From Lactobacillus acetotolerans DSM 20749 = JCM 3825 (GTDB lineage: Bacteria > Bacillota > Bacilli > Lactobacillales > Lactobacillaceae): DNA of 38,194 nucleotides. Shown here one piece after another: positions 7,332 through 38,194 of the stretch; positions within the stretch are counted from its first letter, which is position 1, and every line of letters starts with the position of its first letter. The notes beneath the pieces were generated by a model that worked only from the letters and a program-made list of their open reading frames with translations, did no database searches and was not told where the DNA came from. Position numbers and translations under genes: made by a program. Location: positions 1 to 38,194 of the forward strand of contig NZ_AYZC01000011.1 of assembly GCF_001436775.1 (NCBI RefSeq), in the 5' to 3' direction.

Positions 7332-8368
7332 TATTCATCAGTCATCCTTCTGCGTGACATTGCCTCAAGAGCCAAATTAATTATTTCTCTAGCAACTTTT
7401 TTACCATCATGAAAGACCAGCCCACTATGCTGGTCAATAAAATCATCGGTAATAACCCGGCAATCTTGCTTGCGTAAGCCTGCAAAATCATTCCTTACGG
7501 GTTCCAAATAAGCATCATAATCTTCTGGATGAAACTTACTCATATCAATTTTGGCACCATTAACAAGCGCCGTATTAATATAATGACCACCAAGATGATT
7601 ATTAATCACCTGAACGTGTTCTGCATCACTAAAATGATCGGTTTCACCGCGCTGGGTCATAATATTACAAATATAAATTACTTCAGCGCTAGTTTTACGG
7701 ACGGCTTCACCCAAATTGGGAATCATTAAGTTAGGCAAAATTGACGTGAATAAACTACCTGGCCCTAAAACAACGGCATCAGCCTGCATAATAGCAGCTA
7801 ATACTGGCAAAACGGCTGTTGGTTTAGCACCAGAATTTGTATCTGTTACCCAAACACGCTTTATTCGCTTATCTTTAGAAGTAATTTCTGTTTCACCAAC
7901 CTCGGTAGTACCATCAACAAATTCAGCGTTCAAAGTTAACGGTTCGTTAGATGCTGGGAAAACATGACCATCAACACGCATCATTTTTGACAATGATTGG
8001 ACAGCATCAAAAATATTTCCGTGCATTTCATTTAAAGCAGCAATGATTAAATTACCAATCGCGTGCCCTGAAAAAAATGAATCAGAGGAATCAAAACGAT
8101 ATTGAAAAACATTTTTTTCTTCCTGTGAAATATCGCTTAATGAGACCAAGACATTCCGAATATCACCAGGTGGAACAACGTTAATAAAATTTCGAATCGA
8201 ACCAGATGACCCACCATCATCCGAAACGGTAACTATGGCCGTAATTTCTGCATTTTTATCTTTTAAAGCATTTAAAATAACCGGTAATCCGGTTCCGCCA
8301 CCGATAACGACCACTTTGGGTCTCCTACTTTTGATGACCCGAATTATCTTTGATTCTCCGTATGCCAT
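7331..8368 (-). CDS. yvcK: YvcK/GlmR family protein
   Basis: Member of the CofD-like/YvcK family. In B. subtilis this protein (GlmR) binds UDP-GlcNAc and directs carbon toward cell-wall precursors, and is needed on gluconeogenic substrates. Visible motifs are the Rossmann-like loop [10 protein letters not shown] near the N-terminus and DDGGSSG. The ATG at 8368 (345 aa) is preferred because AGGTGG lies 5 bases upstream; an in-frame GTG at 8377, directly after the rapZ stop, would add three residues. It lies between rapZ and whiA in a tight operon, a combination conserved in Firmicutes. Confidence 0.95.
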
Positions 8369-8377
8369 GTTTTCCAC

Positions 8378-9253
8378 CTATTTCCTAGTATACCGACTGA
8401 CTTCACGGTGTGTGATATCAACCGGATATTTCTTCGATAAATCACGTGCTAACTGCTGAGCTATTGCAACGCTTCGGTGCTGGCCACCGGTACAACCAAT
8501 TGCCACCGTCAATTTCTCTTTTCCTTCTTTAATGTAACCTGGTATAGCCGTTTCTAAGAGATCTAGTAATTTTTTATAAAAAACCTGCGTTTCTTTCTTG
8601 TCCATAACATAGTCAAAAACTCGTTTATCCAATCCCGTAAAAGGCCTAAGTTCAGGAATATAAAACGGATTAGGCAAGAAACGAACATCAATTACATCAT
8701 CGGCATCGATTGGCATACCATATTTAAAGCCAAAAGACATCACTTCAATGGAAAACGGCTGCTTCTTTCGATCACTAAATTCATCAAGCAATTTTTGCTT
8801 TAATTGTTTAGGGGTCAACTTAGAAGTATCGATAACATAATTAGAATGATTCTTGATGGGCGTTAAAATCCGTCTTTCTTCTAAAATTCCATCAAGAAGT
8901 CGGCCATTAGTGGCAAGTGGTGGAAGCCGTCTAGTTTCCTTATAACGAGCAACCAAAGTATCATTTGATGCATCCAAAAACACAATCGTTGCTTGAACTT
9001 GGCCATTATCTTCAAGTGAATTAACCTCGTTTAATAAATCTTTATAAAAGTTTCTTACACGCAGATCAATTACAACCGCAACTTTTTTAAAATCATCAGA
9101 ATTAACCATTAAATCCCAAAAGCCGCTTAACAGTTCCGGTGGCAAATTATCAACAACAAAATAACCTATATCTTCTAATGCATGGGCAGCAACGGTCTTA
9201 CCTGCACCACTCATACCTGTTATGATCAATAATTGTTTCTTTTCGTCAGCCAT
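8378..9253 (-). CDS. rapZ: RNase adapter/nucleotide-binding protein RapZ (YvcJ)
   Basis: P-loop nucleotide-binding protein. The E. coli homologue is the adapter that routes the sRNA GlmZ to RNase E; the Firmicute homologue YvcJ hydrolyses nucleotides and influences competence, and its RNA role is unproven. At 291 aa it has Walker A GMSGAGKT (about residues 13-20) and a conserved C-terminal block GCTGGQHRSVAIAQQL. The start is ATG after a strong GGAGGG. It is the first gene of rapZ-yvcK-whiA, with its own extended -10 promoter, after the terminator of the HdeD-like gene. Confidence 0.95.
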   Translation of the reverse strand: MADEKKQLLIITGMSGAGKTVAAHALEDIGYFVVDNLPPELLSGFWDLMVNSDDFKKVAVVIDLRVRNFYKDLLNEVNSLEDNGQVQATIVFLDASNDTLVARYKETRRLPPLATNGRLLDGILEERRILTPIKNHSNYVIDTSKLTPKQLKQKLLDEFSDRKKQPFSIEVMSFGFKYGMPIDADDVIDVRFLPNPFYIPELRPFTGLDKRVFDYVMDKKETQVFYKKLLDLLETAIPGYIKEGKEKLTVAIGCTGGQHRSVAIAQQLARDLSKKYPVDITHREVSRYTRK

Positions 9254-9275
9254 AAAAGACCCTCCTACTAGTTAA

Positions 9276-9304
9276 ATTATAGCATACCGGGTGTTTCTTC
9301 TTAA
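9276..9304 (-). promoter_or_regulatory. Promoter of rapZ-yvcK-whiA
   Basis: On the minus strand: TTAAGA, a 17-base spacer and TATAAT (9276-9281) with an extended -10 TGC directly before it. It is placed just upstream of the GGAGGG of rapZ. Confidence 0.75.
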
Positions 9305-30969: not shown

Positions 30970-31009
30970 GATTACTATCGCCTTTTTTTAGATTATTCAC
31001 ACAGTATTA

Positions 31010-31038
31010 ATAATAAAGAACCTAGAAGCTCATGTCAA
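31010..31038 (-). promoter_or_regulatory. rny promoter
   Basis: On the minus strand: a perfect TTGACA (31033-31038), a 17-base spacer and TATTAT (31010-31015). The best promoter match in this half of the window. Confidence 0.88.
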
Positions 31039-31043
31039 TCAAC

Positions 31044-31071
31044 AAAAAAGCCTTGGAATTAAATTCCAAGG
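31044..31071 (-). terminator. Terminator of recA
   Basis: A 10-bp palindromic stem (31051-31060 with 31062-31071), followed on the minus strand by a T6 run (31044-31049). Confidence 0.9.
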
Positions 31072-31092
31072 TCAAGCTTAATTTCTTCAACT

Positions 31093-32202
31093 TTATTTGC
31101 TTTTGCTGGCAGCTACTTTTTTAGTAGATGTCTTCTTTTCTTCAGCCTTTTCGGCTTTTTCGTTCTTTTCCTTAACTTTTTCAGGATCCTCACGATCAGC
31201 TACAGATTTTTCATCAATCCCATAAGCATGGCGAACTTGATGTTGAATGTCTTTATACATATCCGGATGATCTTCTAAATACTTTTTGGCATTCTCACGG
31301 CCCTGACCAATTCGGTCGCTCTTGTATGAATACCACGAACCAGCTTTATTGATAATGTCTTTATCCGTTGCCATGTCAAGAAGTTCACCACTCTGTGAAA
31401 TTCCTTTACCATACATCATATCTACTTCAGCAACTTTAAATGGGGGTGCAACTTTATTCTTAACAACCTTAATTTTAACTCGGTTACCAATAATGTTACC
31501 AGCTTGTTTAATTTTTTCAGCTCTTCTAATTTCTAAACGAATAGTTGAATAAAATTTCAAAGCACGACCACCGGGCGTCGTTTCAGGGTTACCAAACATA
31601 ACTCCAACTTTTTCACGAATCTGGTTAATAAAAATCGCAATTGTTTTGGTTTTAGAAATAGTCCCAGAAAGCTTACGCAAAGCCTGGCTCATCAATCTAG
31701 CCTGTAATCCAACGTGAGTATCACCCATTTCACCATCAATTTCAGCTTGAGGAACTAAGGCAGCTACAGAATCAACTACCACAATATCGACAGCTCCACT
31801 AGAAATTAAGGTATCCGCGATCTGCAAGCCTTCTTCACCAGTATTAGGTTGAGACAAAATCAGTGAATCAACATCAACGCCAAGTGCTTCCGCATAAGCT
31901 GGATCCATTGCATTTTCAGCATCGATATAAGCAGCTGTACCACCATGTTTTTGCACTTCTGCTACGGCATGCAAAGCAACGGTAGTTTTACCAGAAGATT
32001 CAGGACCATAAATTTCAACAATTCTACCACGCGGATAGCCACCTACACCTAGTGCAGCATCAAGTGCAAGTGAACCGGATGGCACAGTTGAAATTTTGGT
32101 ATCTGCTTTGTCACCCATGCGCATAACTGCACCTTTACCAAAATTTTTTTCAATCTTTTTAAGAGCTACGTCTAAAGCAGCTTTCTTTTCATCTTTGGCC
32201 AA
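31093..32202 (-). CDS. recA: Recombinase RecA
   Basis: DNA strand-exchange protein and SOS co-protease. About 369 aa. Walker A GPESSGKT lies at residues 66-73, followed by the RecA signature ([11 protein letters not shown] region) and a Lys/Glu-rich C-terminal tail ([15 protein letters not shown]). The start is TTG at 32202, giving [10 protein letters not shown], because AGGAGG lies 8 bases upstream. The frame stays open to another TTG at 32235, but that codon overlaps the TATAAT of the promoter and cannot be the start. It has its own LexA box, promoter and terminator. Confidence 0.97.
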
Positions 32203-32234
32203 ACGTTTTTCCTCCTCTAACTTTGTACTATTCA

Positions 32235-32264
32235 ATTATACTTTGATTTATGTCCGCTTTGCAA
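32235..32264 (-). promoter_or_regulatory. recA promoter
   Basis: On the minus strand: TTGCAA (32259-32264), an 18-base spacer and TATAAT (32235-32240), about 33 bases before the TTG start codon. Confidence 0.75.
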
Positions 32265-32272
32265 GGAAAAAG

Positions 32273-32286
32273 CGAACAAATGTTTA
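32273..32286 (-). promoter_or_regulatory. LexA (SOS) box of recA
   Basis: CGAACAAATGTTTA on the plus strand, close to the Gram-positive LexA form CGAAC-N4-GTTCG, 8 bases upstream of the -35 box. A similar box precedes uvrB, supporting a common SOS regulon. Confidence 0.8.
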
Positions 32287-32315
32287 GGCATTTTTATCCT
32301 CAGTATTAAGTACGC

Positions 32316-32343
32316 AAAAATTATAAATTTTACTTTTATAATT
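32316..32343 (-). terminator. Weak AT-only terminator after the last OpuC-like lipoprotein gene
   Basis: A 9-bp A/T-only stem (32319-32327 with 32335-32343), followed on the minus strand by five T. The lack of GC makes it weak, so readthrough toward recA is possible. Confidence 0.5.
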
Positions 32344-32357
32344 AATTCTATATATAA

Positions 32358-33293
32358 TTATTTACTATCTCTAAAATAATGATTTTTAACTAAAAATCTA
32401 TGTGCAACGGTTGATGGCTCTAATAACTGATCATCCACCTCATAGTTCATTTTCCGCATTTGATGCACACCAATTCTACCATCAAGCCGGTGCAGAACCG
32501 GCTTAAGATCTGGATGTTCTCTTAAAATATAATTATTAACTAACATACCACAATTATATGGCGGGAAGAAATGCTTGTCATCCCTTAACAATTTCAGATG
32601 ATAGCTGTCTATACGCCCATCAGTTGAATATCCTAAAACTACGTTCATTCGTCCATTTTGTAAAGCTGAATAAACTAAGCCGATACTCATTGCATGAACT
32701 TTGAAAAAAGTTATTCCATAATCTAACTGAAAATCCGGATATCCGTCACCTTTACGATTTAACCAATCAGTAGAAACCCCTAAAGCATATTTATCTTCAA
32801 CTTTCTTCAAGTCAGAAACCTTTTTTAGATGATCTTTCTTTGCTTCTTTAGGTGTAACCATGAACGCATAAGTATCAGAAAAGCCATAAGTTGGAAAGTA
32901 AGTTTGATCCCAGCGTTTTTTTACTTCTTGTCGAACTATCTCATTAGCCCTTTTAGAATTTTTGATTGGTTCCATTCCTAGATTAGTAGTTAATTCACTA
33001 CCATCATAAGCAGCAGCTTGAATATCCGCATCACGACGATAAAGAGCCTGATGCTGCATTGATGAGGAACCCAAATTATTTACAATTGCTGTTTTATAAT
33101 TCGTTTCGTGTTCAATTAATTCTGCAACTATGTTAGCAATAATTTGAGATTCTGTAGTATTGAGGGCTGTTATCCGAATATTATCATTCCCACTTTGTGT
33201 AGAAGATAATCCAGGTAATCCACACCCGGCTGTAAAGATTACTAACAAAAATGACATTACCAGCAGCACTAATTTCTTAAAAGCTTTTTTCAT
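32358..33293 (-). CDS. Osmoprotectant-binding lipoprotein, OpuCC paralogue 1 (311 aa)
   Basis: Extracellular substrate-binding protein of the glycine betaine/carnitine/choline (OpuAC-type) family. A type II signal peptide ends at C24 (TAGC, with Thr rather than Leu at -3). The mature protein carries family motifs PTYGFSDTYAFMV, GYSTDGRIDSYHLKLL and FFPPYNCGML. It is one of three same-length copies beside an OpuC transporter. A terminator separates it from the copy upstream, and a TATAAT (33375-33380) is present, so it is probably expressed independently. It carries more substitutions than the other two (VKNHYFRDSK end, YGITFFKVHAM), so ligand preference may differ. Confidence 0.9.
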   Translation of the reverse strand: MKKAFKKLVLLVMSFLLVIFTAGCGLPGLSSTQSGNDNIRITALNTTESQIIANIVAELIEHETNYKTAIVNNLGSSSMQHQALYRRDADIQAAAYDGSELTTNLGMEPIKNSKRANEIVRQEVKKRWDQTYFPTYGFSDTYAFMVTPKEAKKDHLKKVSDLKKVEDKYALGVSTDWLNRKGDGYPDFQLDYGITFFKVHAMSIGLVYSALQNGRMNVVLGYSTDGRIDSYHLKLLRDDKHFFPPYNCGMLVNNYILREHPDLKPVLHRLDGRIGVHQMRKMNYEVDDQLLEPSTVAHRFLVKNHYFRDSK

Positions 33294-33374
33294 TTGTGCT
33301 ACCCCCTTTAGTTACCGCTATTGGGAAGAAATTTATTATTAAATTAATAAATATTTTATAACTTCTTTATATGT

Positions 33375-33380
33375 ATTATA
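33375..33380 (-). promoter_or_regulatory. Candidate -10 box for OpuCC paralogue 1
   Basis: A perfect TATAAT on the minus strand between the preceding terminator and the start codon. There is no good -35 hexamer at the usual distance, so activator dependence or a weak promoter is possible. Confidence 0.45.
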
Positions 33381-33401
33381 CTATCTCATTTAATTTTAGG
33401 G

Positions 33402-33435
33402 AAAAATAAAAACAGCCGTTTATTAAACGGCTGTT
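33402..33435 (-). terminator. Terminator after OpuCC paralogue 2
   Basis: A 12-bp stem (33411-33422 with 33424-33435) with a core of AACAGCCG and its complement, followed on the minus strand by a T-rich tract. Confidence 0.9.
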
Positions 33436-33457
33436 CTTTAAACATATAAATATGTTT

Positions 33458-34393
33458 CTATTTTTTATCTCTAAAATAATTATTCTTTACCAAAAATTGA
33501 TGGGCAACAGTTGACGGTTCAAGCAATTCATCATCAACCTCATAATTCATGTGTCTAATCGTATGCATCCCTATTCGACCAACTAACCGGCGTAAAATCG
33601 GTTTAAGGTCAGGATGTTCCCTTAAAACATAATTATTAATCAACATACCACAGTTATATGGCGGGAAGAAATGGCGATTATCCTTCAACAGCTTTAAATG
33701 ATAACTATCAATTCTACCATCCGTCGAATAACCTAATACTACATTCATCCTGCCAGTTTGCAATGCTGAATAAACTAATCCAATATTCATTGCTCGCATC
33801 TTAGGAAAGGAAAGACCGTATGCCTTCTCAAATTCTTTATAGCCTACACCTGGTGCATTTACCCACTCAGAAGCTACACCTAAAGAATATTTATCTTCAA
33901 CTTTCTTCAAATCAGAAATATCTTTTAAGTTATATTTTTTAGCTTCTTCAGGTTTAACCATGAAAGCATAGTTATCAGAAAAGCCATAGGTTGGCAAATA
34001 GGTCTGGTCCCAACGTTTCTTTACTTCATAACGAACAGTATCATTAGCTTTTTTAGAATTTTTAATTGCTGGCATACCTAAATTAGCTGTTAATTCACCA
34101 CCATCATAAGCAGCTGCTTGAATATCAGCGTTATGACGATAAAGCGCCTGGTGCTGCATCGGTGCAGATCCCAAATTATTTACAATTGAAGTTTTATAAT
34201 GAGTTTCATGCTCAATTAATTGCGAAACTATATTAGCAACAATTTGTGATTCCGTAGTGGTCAAAGCCGTTATTCTAATAGTGTCATTACCACCCTGAGC
34301 AGAGGATAACCCTGGCAAGCCACAAGCAGTAGTAGAAATTGCTAATAAGAATACAATTATTACTAACAATAATTTCTTAAAATATTTTTTCAA
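33458..34393 (-). CDS. Osmoprotectant-binding lipoprotein, OpuCC paralogue 2 (311 aa)
   Basis: Second copy of the OpuCC-type binding protein, colinear with the other two. Lipobox TTAC with C24. The conserved blocks PTYGFSDNYAFMV, GYSTDGRIDSYHLKLL and FFPPYNCGML are present. The start is TTG with AGGAGG 10 bases upstream. It follows the terminator of the four-gene transporter operon and has a promoter with TATAAT, so it is a separate unit. It differs around the mid-domain (WVNAPGVGYKEFEKAYG where the others have WLNRKGDGY), a region that could affect ligand binding. Probably supplies the same OpuC permease. Confidence 0.9.
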   Translation of the reverse strand: MKKYFKKLLLVIIVFLLAISTTACGLPGLSSAQGGNDTIRITALTTTESQIVANIVSQLIEHETHYKTSIVNNLGSAPMQHQALYRHNADIQAAAYDGGELTANLGMPAIKNSKKANDTVRYEVKKRWDQTYLPTYGFSDNYAFMVKPEEAKKYNLKDISDLKKVEDKYSLGVASEWVNAPGVGYKEFEKAYGLSFPKMRAMNIGLVYSALQTGRMNVVLGYSTDGRIDSYHLKLLKDNRHFFPPYNCGMLINNYVLREHPDLKPILRRLVGRIGMHTIRHMNYEVDDELLEPSTVAHQFLVKNNYFRDKK

Positions 34394-34504
34394 TCGTAAA
34401 AAACCTCCTACTAGTCACCATTATTTTCTTGACCTAAATACTTAGCTTACCAAGCAGTCCTTTTAATAAAATAATAATATTTAACTTGCTTCTTCACTAA
34501 TTTA

Positions 34505-34534
34505 ATTATACTTTTATCCGTACCAAGTATGCAA
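34505..34534 (-). promoter_or_regulatory. Promoter of OpuCC paralogue 2
   Basis: On the minus strand: TTGCAT, an 18-base spacer and TATAAT (34505-34510), just after the terminator of the transporter operon. The leader to the start codon is about 105 bases long; I saw no clear riboswitch in it. This covers the 202-base gap 34394-34595. Confidence 0.65.
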
Positions 34535-34540
34535 GGTCTA

Positions 34541-34573
34541 AAAAATAAGAATCCGCATATCATGCGACTTCTT
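34541..34573 (-). terminator. Terminator of the opuCABCD operon
   Basis: A 12-position stem (34547-34558 with 34562-34573) with one mismatch and one G-U pair, followed on the minus strand by TTATTTTTT. Confidence 0.75.
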
Positions 34574-34595
34574 ACTTAATTTATTAATTTTAATA

Positions 34596-35255
34596 TTATT
34601 CTCTTAGACCCTTAGGTACTATCCACTTTTCAGCAAAGTTTAGGATGATATCAGCTACGATGGCCATTAAAGCAGTTGGAACGGCTCCAGCTAAAATCAA
34701 AGCACCACCATTAGTAGCGTTCGTACCACGAATAATAATATCACCTAATCCACCAGCTCCAACGAAGGAACCGATAGAAGTAATACCAATGGCAATAACC
34801 AAAGCATTCTTCAAACCTGCAATAATAACAGACATTGAGAGCGGCAGACGAACCATATAAAGCAATTGCAAATTCGTCATGCCCATACCTTTACCTGAAT
34901 CAATAACGTTCTTATCAACGCTTCGCATACCTGTATAAGTATTTTTAATAATCGGTAGCAATGAGTATAACGTTACGGTTACGATAACGGTATTAACACC
35001 CAATCCTAATCCAATCATGACAATAGACAGTAAAGCCAGTGAGGGGATAGTTTGAATAAAGTTAGCAATTTCAACAACGAAATCACCTAAATGTGAATTT
35101 CTAGCAATAAAAATACCGACCGGGATACCAATGATGGCTGCAAACAACACGCCATAGATTGAAATTAAAAATGTACGGTCAAATTGCTGCAAAACATAGG
35201 CTCCGTTATGCTGGTAGTAATAAATAAATTGTTGCCATATAGATAATTTTGACAT
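34596..35255 (-). CDS. opuCD: Osmoprotectant ABC transporter permease, OpuCD type
   Basis: Membrane subunit of a glycine betaine/carnitine/choline importer. 219 aa, about six hydrophobic segments, with the binding-protein-dependent transport EAA-like loop (IDSGKGMGMTNLQLLYMVRLP) that docks on the ATPase. Its ATG follows the stop codon of the binding-protein gene with no gap (TAAATG), and its AGGAGG lies inside that gene, so the two are coupled. Last gene of the operon; terminator follows. It pairs with the OpuCB-type permease. Confidence 0.93.
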   Translation of the reverse strand: MSKLSIWQQFIYYYQHNGAYVLQQFDRTFLISIYGVLFAAIIGIPVGIFIARNSHLGDFVVEIANFIQTIPSLALLSIVMIGLGLGVNTVIVTVTLYSLLPIIKNTYTGMRSVDKNVIDSGKGMGMTNLQLLYMVRLPLSMSVIIAGLKNALVIAIGITSIGSFVGAGGLGDIIIRGTNATNGGALILAGAVPTALMAIVADIILNFAEKWIVPKGLRE

Positions 35256-36191
35256 TTATTTATTCCTCCTAAAATAATTATTTTTAACTAAAAACTGGTG
35301 GGCAACAGTTGATGGTTCTAATAGCTCATCATCAACTTCATAATTCATATGTCTTATTTGATGCATATTCATTTTCCCATCAAGTCTACTTAGAATCGGT
35401 TTAAGATCTGGATGCTCTCTTAAAACGTAGTTATTAATCAACATGCCACAATTATATGGTGGGAAGAAATGACGATTATCTTTTAATAATTTCAAATGAT
35501 AACTATCAATTCGGCCATCAGTCGAGTATCCTAAAACAACGTTCATTCTACCCTCTTGCAATGCCGAATAAACTAAACCGATATTCATTGGATAAGTCTT
35601 TGCGAAGGTTATGCCATAAGTATTTTGGAAGTCTTTATATCCATCACCCTTACGGTTTAACCAGTCAGATGAAACACCCAGTGAATAGTTATTTTCAACC
35701 TTTTTTAGATCGGAAACATTATTTAAGTGATCTTTTTTAGCTTCATTTTGCTTAACCATGAAAGCATAATTATCTGCAAAACCATAAGTAGGCAAGTAAG
35801 TTTGATCCCAACGCTTTCTTACTTCCCTACGAACAGTATCATTAGCTTTCTTAGAATTTTTGATTGGAGCCATACCTAAGTTAGCAGTTAATTCACCACC
35901 ATCATAAGCAGCTGCTTGAATATCCGCATCACGACGATAAAGAGCTTGGTGCTGCATTGGTGCAGAACCTAAATTATTAACAATCGAGGTTTTATAAGGC
36001 GTTTCATGTTCAATTAACTCAGAAACAATATTTGCCACAATTTGCGATTCAGTTGTATTAAGAGCGGTAATTCGTAAATTATTATTACCACCTTGTGCTG
36101 ACGCTAAACCCGGTAGTCCACAACCAGAAACAGAAATCATAATCAGGAATGATGCTATCACCAGCATTAGACTTTTAAGAATTTTTTTCAT
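35256..36191 (-). CDS. opuCC: Osmoprotectant-binding lipoprotein OpuCC (operon copy)
   Basis: Substrate-binding lipoprotein of the transporter, in the classical third position of opuCA-CB-CC-CD. 311 aa. The lipobox is VSGC with C24, the most standard of the three copies. Ligand-pocket region motifs AAAYDGGELTANLG, PTYGFADNYAFMV and GYSTDGRIDSYHLKLL are present. ATG start after AAGGAGAT. It lies 14 bases after the first permease and is directly abutted by the second. Two further copies lie downstream as single-gene units. Confidence 0.93.
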   Translation of the reverse strand: MKKILKSLMLVIASFLIMISVSGCGLPGLASAQGGNNNLRITALNTTESQIVANIVSELIEHETPYKTSIVNNLGSAPMQHQALYRRDADIQAAAYDGGELTANLGMAPIKNSKKANDTVRREVRKRWDQTYLPTYGFADNYAFMVKQNEAKKDHLNNVSDLKKVENNYSLGVSSDWLNRKGDGYKDFQNTYGITFAKTYPMNIGLVYSALQEGRMNVVLGYSTDGRIDSYHLKLLKDNRHFFPPYNCGMLINNYVLREHPDLKPILSRLDGKMNMHQIRHMNYEVDDELLEPSTVAHQFLVKNNYFRRNK

Positions 36192-36205
36192 TTGGGGATA
36201 TCTCC

Positions 36206-36838
36206 TTAGTTGTTATTTACTCCGGCTGGTGTAAGCTTCTTTTCCAATCTGCCAAGTAGATAATCGGTTAACAGTGCCAAAATAATAACAGGAATAGTTC
36301 CACCAAAAATAAGATCTGGTTGGTAAAGGTTTAAACCATTAAAAATAAAGTCACCTAACCCACCGGCGCCTATATACGAAGCTAGTGTTGACCACGCAAT
36401 AACATAGATAGCTGATAAACGGATACCAGACATAATAACCGGCATTGCTAAAGGAATATCAACCTTCGTAATAATTTGTATTTGTGTCATGCCTACTCCC
36501 TTGGCTGAATCAACCGTATTCGGGTTAACTCCTGTCAAACCAACATAAGTATTTCTTAAAATAGGCATCAAACTATAAAGAAATAAGGCAACAATTGCTG
36601 GTAATTGACCAATGCCAAAGATCGGCAGCATCATGGCTAACAATGCTAGTGCCGGAATAGTTTGCAGCATACTTGCAATTGCCATTACTACTTTAGCGGT
36701 TCGTGGGAATTTCATTAAAATGACACTCAACGGAATCGCAACAATAATTCCTAAAGCTAACGCAATTGCGGATATATAAATCTGCTGCCAAGTTTTAGTA
36801 AGAAGCTCAGAACCATGTTGGGTTAAAAAAGCGGTCAT
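36206..36838 (-). CDS. opuCB: Osmoprotectant ABC transporter permease, OpuCB type
   Basis: First membrane subunit of the importer. 210 aa with about five to six hydrophobic segments. The ATPase-docking loop is VDSAKGVGMTQIQIITKVDIP. Its ATG overlaps the stop codon of the ATPase gene by one base (TAATG), so synthesis is coupled. Homologous to OpuCD in the same operon, as usual for these heteromeric permeases. Confidence 0.93.
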   Translation of the reverse strand: MTAFLTQHGSELLTKTWQQIYISAIALALGIIVAIPLSVILMKFPRTAKVVMAIASMLQTIPALALLAMMLPIFGIGQLPAIVALFLYSLMPILRNTYVGLTGVNPNTVDSAKGVGMTQIQIITKVDIPLAMPVIMSGIRLSAIYVIAWSTLASYIGAGGLGDFIFNGLNLYQPDLIFGGTIPVIILALLTDYLLGRLEKKLTPAGVNNN

Positions 36839-38037
36839 TATTTATTCGCCCCTTTTGCTGAATCCTTTGTTTGTTTAGATTTAGATAATAGTGGGTTGTT
36901 ATCACCCCAAATAGTTTCGTAAACAACGTTTACCAAACTTGAACGGGTAACAATACCAACAAGTTTATCATTTTTATCTACAACCGGAACATATTGACCG
37001 TTACGCTCTAAGATTCGGTTGAAGTTATCACGTAAGTAATCGTCAGGACCAATTGTATAAATATTTTTATTGACAATATCGCTAACGCCAGAAACTTGAT
37101 GATAACGTTGTTCCAACTTTTCAATTGAAATATAACCCTTTAAGTGATTAGAATCATCTACTACCAGCAAAGTATCAACGTGGCTAGATTTCATCTTATC
37201 CAAAGCCTCAGTTAGTGAGGCACCCAAATTGATTTTAGCTGGTTTAGTTAACATCACGCTCTTAACTTTAACAGTTTCGTACTGCGCTTCAGCCAAACGA
37301 TCTTCACCAATTAGATTTCTAACGAAATCATTAGCAGGATGTTGCAGAATATCATCTGGTGTACCCTCCTGGATCTTATGACCATCGTGCAATACAACGA
37401 TTTGAGTAGCTAACTTCAAAGCTTCGTCCCTATCATGAGTGACGAAAACGATAGTTTTACCAAATTTAGTTTGCAAACGTTGAACTAAGTCTTGTAAATT
37501 TTCACGAGTAATTGGATCCAAAGCCCCAAATGGCTCATCCATCAAGATTAAATTCTGATCAGCCGCTAAAGCCCTAACAACACCAATTCTTTGCTGTTGC
37601 CCACCTGACAATTCTGACGGATAACGATCCAAATAAGATTCTGGTAATTCAGCCAATTTAATTAATTCTTTGGCTTTAGCATCAAGCTTGGCTTGAGGCC
37701 ACTTCAATAACTTAGGAACCAAAATGATATTATCACGAATGGTCATATGTGGCATTAAGCCGTTACTTTGAATAACATACCCAATATGGCGACGTAAACT
37801 CACAGGATTAAAGTCCTTAACATTCTTTCCTTCAATATAAACATCACCCTTAGTGATACTATTCATACGGTTAATCATCCGCATTAAAGTTGTTTTACCA
37901 GAACCAGAAGTCCCGATAAAACAACAAAAATCACCTTTTTTTATCTTAATATTAATATCTTCAACAGCTGGTGTTTTGCTTTTTGGATATACTTTAGTAA
38001 CATCCTTAAACTCAACCATAGGAGTTTCTTCTGTCAT
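36838..38037 (-). CDS. opuCA: Osmoprotectant ABC transporter ATP-binding protein with tandem CBS domains
   Basis: Cytosolic ATPase that powers uptake of glycine betaine-like solutes. About 399 aa. Walker A is GTSGSGKT (residues 42-49), the signature LSGGQQQR, and Walker B LILMDEPFGALD. Two CBS domains follow from about residue 250 (VMLTKPAKINLGASLTEAL; YTIGPDDYLRDNFNRI), which in OpuA/OpuC proteins sense ionic strength or c-di-AMP. The ATG at 38037 is preferred, as AAGGGA lies about 9 bases upstream. An earlier in-frame ATG at 38055 would add six residues but has no ribosome binding signal. First gene of opuCA-CB-CC-CD, with a candidate promoter just upstream. Confidence 0.94.
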   Translation of the reverse strand: MTEETPMVEFKDVTKVYPKSKTPAVEDINIKIKKGDFCCFIGTSGSGKTTLMRMINRMNSITKGDVYIEGKNVKDFNPVSLRRHIGYVIQSNGLMPHMTIRDNIILVPKLLKWPQAKLDAKAKELIKLAELPESYLDRYPSELSGGQQQRIGVVRALAADQNLILMDEPFGALDPITRENLQDLVQRLQTKFGKTIVFVTHDRDEALKLATQIVVLHDGHKIQEGTPDDILQHPANDFVRNLIGEDRLAEAQYETVKVKSVMLTKPAKINLGASLTEALDKMKSSHVDTLLVVDDSNHLKGYISIEKLEQRYHQVSGVSDIVNKNIYTIGPDDYLRDNFNRILERNGQYVPVVDKNDKLVGIVTRSSLVNVVYETIWGDNNPLLSKSKQTKDSAKGANK

Positions 38038-38073
38038 AATTCGCATTCCCTTCATTTAATTAAGGTTATCTAA

Positions 38074-38102
38074 ATACTAACAAACTGTGGAAAACAAATC
38101 AA
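38074..38102 (-). promoter_or_regulatory. Candidate promoter of the opuC operon
   Basis: On the minus strand: TTGATT, a 17-base spacer and TAGTAT (38074-38079). Both boxes are moderate matches, as may suit an osmotically regulated promoter. Confidence 0.45.
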
Positions 38103-38155
38103 AAAACACTGTTATTAAATTTTAAATTAATTATAAAAAAAGGGTCTATGATATT

Positions 38156-38194
38156 CCCTGTTGATAGTTTATATATGATAAGCTGTTAGCAGGG
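38156..38194 (+). other. 17-bp RNA-like hairpin at the right edge
   Basis: Positions 38156-38172 pair with 38178-38194 around a 5-base loop (ATATG). In plus-strand RNA all 17 pairs form, four of them G-U wobbles; in minus-strand RNA those four become A-C mismatches. This asymmetry hints that the functional RNA, if any, is read rightward. The window ends exactly at the stem base, so what follows is unknown. It may be a terminator stem, a leader element or chance. Confidence 0.5.

Follow-up and report, generated by a model that had tools for sequence, protein, structure and literature searches.

The locus examined here raises the question of why an importer with a single permease pair should be accompanied by three receptor genes. 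The window, that is, the whole stretch of 38,194 nucleotides analysed, covers positions 1 to 38,194 of contig NZ_AYZC01000011.1 of Lactobacillus acetotolerans DSM 20749 = JCM 3825 (assembly GCF_001436775.1) and carries the operon order opuCA-CB-CC-CD of OpuC importers. Three intact open reading frames for OpuCC-type lipoproteins, each of 311 residues, lie on its minus strand exactly where a previous reading of the DNA made from the letters alone, hereafter the sequence-only reading, had placed them; CC1 is inside the operon whereas CC2 and CC3 lie between opuCD and recA. We consider that these are three receptors for one importer with differing solute preferences, with a probability of about 0.58. 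Alternative receptors for one permease pair had already been proposed in the sequence-only reading, and constraint on the copies, differences in their pockets and genome searches that gave no second OpuC-type permease pair make this the best-supported explanation, although the part of the proposal that relied on promoters is not supported beyond chance. Differing solute sets are expected because the copies differ where the carboxylate of the ligand should be held.

Three receptor genes and one permease pair

The genes follow one another on the minus strand in the order opuCA, opuCB, CC1, opuCD, CC2, CC3, recA, with the following features.

36838-38055, minus: opuCA, ATPase with two CBS domains (Pfam ABC_tran and two CBS; NCBIfam proV subfamily, 414.9 bits against a cut-off of 326.6)
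36206-36838, minus: opuCB, permease (Pfam BPD_transp_1; equal position in related loci)
35256-36191, minus: CC1, OpuCC-type lipoprotein of the operon (Pfam OpuAC; positions 44/99/180 are L-G-R)
34596-35255, minus: opuCD, permease (Pfam BPD_transp_1; position in related loci)
34543-34577, minus: terminator-like hairpin and T-run 3' of opuCD (core stem found in the scan; extended fold -13.2 kcal/mol)
34505-34510, minus: TATAAT upstream of CC2 (not above chance)
33458-34393, minus: CC2, solo OpuCC-type lipoprotein with a TTG start (Pfam OpuAC; positions 44/99/180 are L-G-A)
33408-33438, minus: strong terminator-like hairpin 3' of CC2, before CC3 (14 pairs; -17.8 kcal/mol)
33375-33380, minus: TATAAT upstream of CC3 (not above chance)
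32358-33293, minus: CC3, solo OpuCC-type lipoprotein (Pfam OpuAC; positions 44/99/180 are L-S-R)
31093-32235, minus: recA (directly after opuCD in 13 of 13 named bee-clade loci, L035-L047)

The assignment to the OpuCC-type family made in the sequence-only reading was borne out. OpuCC receptors belong to subcluster F-III and bind quaternary amines. CC1, CC2 and CC3 all match Pfam OpuAC with 148.5-161.9 bits against a cut-off of 21.2, no extra domain was found in any of them by Pfam, and OpuCC of Bacillus subtilis (3ppn) is the top solved chain for each (E values of 7e-93, 6e-85 and 1e-96). Identity as EgtU was ruled out, the scores being 288-327 bits to 3ppn against 117-130 bits to EgtUC chains. 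Pairwise, the copies are identical at 252, 241 and 236 of 311 residues (81, 77.5 and 75.9%), and when their alignment was read by eye the lipobox cysteine C24 followed by GLPGL was seen in all three. Structure prediction covered CC2 alone of the three copies. The AlphaFold model has a mean predicted local distance difference test score of 85.8, with both ends low and a run below 50 only at residues 21-35, and it shows the OpuCC/OpuBC fold with a template modelling score of 0.94 to 3ppn (normalised by target). The top 12 Foldseek matches of the model are OpuBC- or OpuCC-type binding proteins, among them 5nxy, which is titled OpuAC. An assembly artefact was ruled out as the source of the copies given that about 24% of their bases differ and all lie on one contig; the genome itself (1.58 Mb) is 99.82% complete and 0.01% contaminated.

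The partners available to these receptors were examined by searching the genome. A search with OpuCD returned opuCD and opuCB, a fusion of a permease with a receptor of its own, and four matches that did not exceed 33 bits, and thus no second OpuC-type permease pair was found. Genome searches gave no match to a BCCT carrier and no OpuA-type receptor. Only one other PF04069 gene was found, on contig 56 (L129:3395-4201); it shares its frame with a permease part, and its product is closest to Listeria Lmo1422 (BilE) and EgtUC. Receptors therefore outnumber permease pairs, three OpuCC genes against the one pair opuCB/opuCD, and on these searches no partner other than OpuCB/OpuCD is evident for CC2 and CC3. 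We infer that CC1, CC2 and CC3 would be working lipoprotein receptors docking on the single OpuCB/OpuCD permease, which would be driven by OpuCA. As a separate observation, the EgtU-like receptor on contig 56 has an apparent Q at the carboxylate-binding R379 of EgtUC and may therefore not be a plain ergothioneine receptor.

The sequence-only reading had also suggested that each extra copy is preceded by a terminator and a TATAAT and followed by a terminator, so that their doses could be set independently. Hairpins with T-runs do follow opuCD (34577-34543) and CC2 (33438-33408), so that CC2 is bracketed and CC3 has one before it. However, scanning and folding of window positions 32236-32357, between CC3 and recA, gave no convincing terminator after CC3 and its transcripts may therefore run into recA. 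A TATAAT is present before each extra copy, as it is in all four gaps examined, but at chance level, being contained in 369 of 1000 dinucleotide shuffles of the CC2 gap and 472 of 1000 of the CC3 gap. The -35 hexamers before CC2 and CC3 are poor. A promoter scan of 31900-38194 was at chance level, with 26 found against 26.2 expected. Separate transcripts of CC2 and CC3 are thus plausible because of the terminators after opuCD and CC2, and independent doses are suggested by these terminators, but the promoters are not beyond chance. Rfam was run on 31000-38194 to look for a riboswitch or leader close to CC2 and CC3. The sole match up to E 0.1 was an L20 leader at 33398-33493 (25.9 bits, below the gathering score of 58.7; E 0.084), which overlaps the CC2 terminator and 3' end and was taken as chance.

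The predicted ligand pocket

Four tyrosines, Y96, Y142, Y222 and Y246 in CC1, which we take to be the OpuCC cage in agreement with the EgtUC residues of the EgtU paper, are kept in CC1, CC2 and CC3. The parts of that paper used here (PMC9732360) give an aromatic cage of F293, Y341, Y419 and Y443 with N339 in EgtUC, and carboxylate contacts from K242, T296 and R379. Transferred to CC1 numbering by counting along alignments, these correspond to the four tyrosines, to D140, and to L44, G99 and R180. The copies differ at two of the three carboxylate-aligned sites, positions 44/99/180 being L-G-R in CC1, L-G-A in CC2 and L-S-R in CC3.

These positions were compared across OpuCC cores taken from open frames of at least 220 residues whose matches spanned 230 residues or more, rows with identical last 200 residues being merged. 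The 83 distinct cores are those over 200 bits, 16 EgtU-like cores were kept separate, and the loci behind the count are weighted to the best matches and are not an even sample. The commonest form is x-T-R (55 of 83), followed by L-G-A (18), G-T-K (3), x-T-H (3), L-D-R (2), L-G-R (1) and L-S-R (1). The L-G-A cores are CC2 and 17 sequences of its clade, while L-S-R is confined to CC3 and L-G-R to CC1. Position 140 is D in all three copies but N in 65 of the 83 cores. R occupies position 180 in 59 of 83 cores, CC1 and CC3 included; among the other 21 genomes of the genus with OpuCC it is A in 18 and R in three (G001, G015 and G044). By this comparison it is CC2, and not the operon copy CC1, that is the form shared with 18 of those 21 genomes.

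The EgtU-like cores have K in column 44 in 14 cases (two gaps) and T in column 99 in all 16. Position 99 is known to matter in one OpuBC case, since the site is D in 3r6u and T in 6eyg, the latter titled an OpuBC mutant with bound glycine betaine. Two points tell against a pocket difference of the kind proposed. Column 180 of the 16 EgtU-like cores is mixed, with L (10), R (3) and Q (3) and a gap close after, so that the match of R180 to R379 of EgtUC is plausible but not certain. In addition, OpuBC and OpuCC are described in those same parts of the EgtU paper as binding the carboxylate by backbone hydrogen bonds and not by a lysine salt bridge (PMC9732360). The block WLNRKGDGY/WVNAPGVGY, around which the sequence-only reading saw the differences between copies cluster, includes the residue aligned, though not with certainty, to the carboxylate arginine of EgtUC. 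The clustering is weak: windows of 25 residues peak at starts 167-176 (permutation p 0.021), and those of 15 and 10 residues give p 0.133 and p 0.45.

The proposed mechanism is then that the copies have the quaternary-amine cage in common while the carboxylate site varies, giving differing solute sets. CC3 and CC1 would still accept carboxylated betaines, for example glycine betaine or carnitine, and CC2 would prefer carboxylate-free solutes, for example choline.

Age of the copies and their relatives

Between copies the non-synonymous divergence (dN) is 0.125-0.145 and the synonymous divergence (dS) 1.4-1.9 (Nei-Gojobori), so synonymous sites are near saturation, and third codon positions are identical at 171-183 of 311. 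Near-saturated dS with few replacements indicates that the copies are old and under purifying selection, as judged from the codon comparison. Recent gene conversion between CC1 and CC2 was considered for residues 211-270, which are near-identical in amino acids, and was rejected as the third positions of this segment show no greater similarity than those outside it. These data bear on the possibility that the copies bind identical solutes and merely provide more receptors per permease. The common cage tyrosines and the identity of 76-81% fit such a dosage effect, but near-saturated dS, the retained differences at 99 and 180 and the lack of recent gene conversion are unlike fresh dose copies, and it appears unlikely.

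An OpuCC match at 1e-50 was present in 22 of 75 genomes of the genus, with three genes in this genome and one in each of the other 21, so that this is the only one of the 75 with more than one. The nearest named loci include those of Lactobacillus apis, helsingborgensis, kimbladii, kullabergensis, melliventris and bombicola, species that live in bees. All 13 loci of this bee clade (L035-L047) share the order opuCA-CB-CC-CD-recA-rny and have a single OpuCC, and CC2 and CC3 therefore occupy the gap between opuCD and recA. Five remoter loci (L048-L052) have one OpuCC and recA does not adjoin. In one of those 21 other genomes (G046, L018) the single opuCC is frameshifted near residue 250 with opuCB, opuCD and recA in place.

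Of 35 OpuCC rows gathered, five (near-duplicates or metagenome-assembled genomes, and the frameshifted G046) were omitted from a 30-row protein tree, for which long-branch warnings were given. CC3 branches first, then CC1 (98/94), then CC2 together with all the single copies of the clade (100/97), and all three copies are inside the clade of this group (100/99). The order survives removal of the block, pocket and signal columns (97/94, 94/93) and is also the best order in the whole-codon tree, while codon positions 1+2 resolve only the group of CC2 and the single copies (95/99); the codon analysis had 17 rows, its second tree 15. The series L-S-R, L-G-R, L-G-A parallels the tree order even with the pocket columns removed.

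Could the triplication instead be confined to this lineage, CC1 and CC3 having reverted to the common WLNRKGDGY block? In an OpuCA+CB+CD tree this genome stands next to the other members of the clade (100/99) and, if that is so, such a triplication should group the three copies together. With the full protein alignment a single clade of CC1-CC3 was rejected (p 0.003, approximately unbiased (AU) test, with long-branch warnings for its tree), as it was with whole codons (p 0.038), and two exact reversions to one block of nine residues would be required. On the other side, reduced data disfavour the single clade only marginally: AU p is 0.0585 once residues 166-205 are dropped, 0.054 when the signal, pocket and block columns are taken out and 0.097 on codon positions 1+2. 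The full-alignment and residues-166-205 tests omitted eight rows and the column-reduced tests 16 (distant or duplicate). CC1 and CC3 as sisters were likewise not rejected on reduced columns (p 0.0546), and a 12-row RecA+Rny tree does not fix the position of this genome. A further difficulty is that the single L-G-A copy of the relatives sits in the operon whereas CC2 here lies outside it, so a replacement, swap or gene conversion on one side must be assumed. These last points count against the explanation favoured here, which includes old duplications. Nonetheless, by their synonymous divergence the split between the copies is old, and duplications before the split of the clade, with losses elsewhere, are more likely, but not proved, than a triplication confined to this lineage, which we regard as improbable.

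Another possibility is that CC1 and CC3 were acquired by transfer, with a sister lineage absent from the sample as donor, and that one of the two displaced the copy in the operon. CC1 and CC3 do carry the R of most cores where most other genomes of the genus with OpuCC have A, but the GC content of the copies is near-equal (0.345-0.348, neighbour genes being slightly higher at 0.361-0.395) and all three lie within the group's clade, although a close sister as donor is compatible with this position. Such a transfer seems rather doubtful, about as much so as the dosage effect. With several receptors for one importer as the preferred explanation, old duplications would have made the copies and, we infer, most relatives with OpuCC retained the L-G-A form alone. 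Going further, the three copies could be surviving stages of a single change of ligand, from x-T-R through L-S-R (CC3) and L-G-R (CC1) to L-G-A (CC2), all present here on one permease, with L-G-A the sole form in most bee-associated relatives with OpuCC and serving a carboxylate-free solute (choline or acetylcholine). This more specific proposal is tentative.

An order-wide sample of 395 genomes contained 222 with a match at 1e-50, of which 16 have two copies while two, G274 and the present genome, have three. The surroundings were inspected for three (G106, G119 and G274) of the 17 further genomes with several copies; in the remaining 14 the copies are on separate contigs or at least 28 kb apart. 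In G106 (L127:4555-7157) a solo OpuCC gene lies 85 bases behind opuCD of the operon and in G119 (L128) one lies shortly behind opuCD, the latter seen by tblastn only. At the position of R180 both have K in the operon copy and R in the solo copy. In G274 two solo OpuCC-like genes (L126:5829-6746 and 8240-9286) are found with a third copy elsewhere in the genome, and no permease gene was seen beside the pair in the 14 kb taken. The two flank an oppositely oriented gene whose product, judged by eye, resembles a CBS-domain membrane protein. G274 thus shows that free-standing receptor genes exist in the order, as they would if the solo copies did not serve the permease and were scavengers, sensors or surface factors. 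CC2 and CC3, however, are 76-81% identical to the operon copy and have no added Pfam domain. The scavenger or surface-factor alternative offered in the sequence-only reading found no support in this analysis and is very unlikely.

Related importers and their receptors

OpuC of Bacillus subtilis and other Firmicutes, as described in the parts of a paper drawn on here (PMC7186363), resembles the present system in its gene order, CBS-domain ATPase, two permeases and tyrosine-cage lipoprotein receptor. The differences are the two further receptor genes after the operon and the L-G-R, L-G-A and L-S-R pockets in place of the x-T-R of most cores. Several receptors per permease are already known from Cbc of Pseudomonas, and the arrangement proposed here would be alike in this respect. 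Judging by the title of Chen et al. 2010, one core transporter there reportedly works with several receptors that serve distinct quaternary ammonium compounds; the title is listed in the references of PMC5806209 and PMC10030565. Cbc is proteobacterial and its receptor genes lie at separate loci, whereas here lipoproteins lie in tandem beside a Lactobacillus OpuC operon. Teichmann et al. 2017, again by title, is said to describe hybrid osmoprotectant importers of B. subtilis OpuB and OpuC moving from specificity to promiscuity; this title occurs in PMC7186363 and PMC6207618. The exchanged part was reportedly the receptor, and these are laboratory constructs while the set found here is natural. 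CbcWV is treated together with CaiX in the part of a further source used (PMC5806209). Closest in layout are G106 and G119, which are an independent case of an extra receptor gene right behind opuCD of an opuCABCD operon, but with one extra copy, in a different family of the order and with T at position 99. Among the 8 of 11 papers listed by a literature search aimed at tandem or paralogous OpuCC in Lactobacillus, no title concerns the subject, with no claim that it is unpublished. What may be new is the occurrence of tandem lipoprotein receptors at a Lactobacillus OpuC operon together with a graded series of pockets.

If the proposal is correct then L. acetotolerans would hold a series of natural receptors, all serving one importer, that documents how an osmoprotectant pocket shifted in specificity stage by stage, the stages lying together in one cell and being open to binding assays. 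It would also suggest that the OpuC of bee-associated Lactobacillus, if named by homology as a glycine betaine/carnitine/choline importer, may mostly carry something else.

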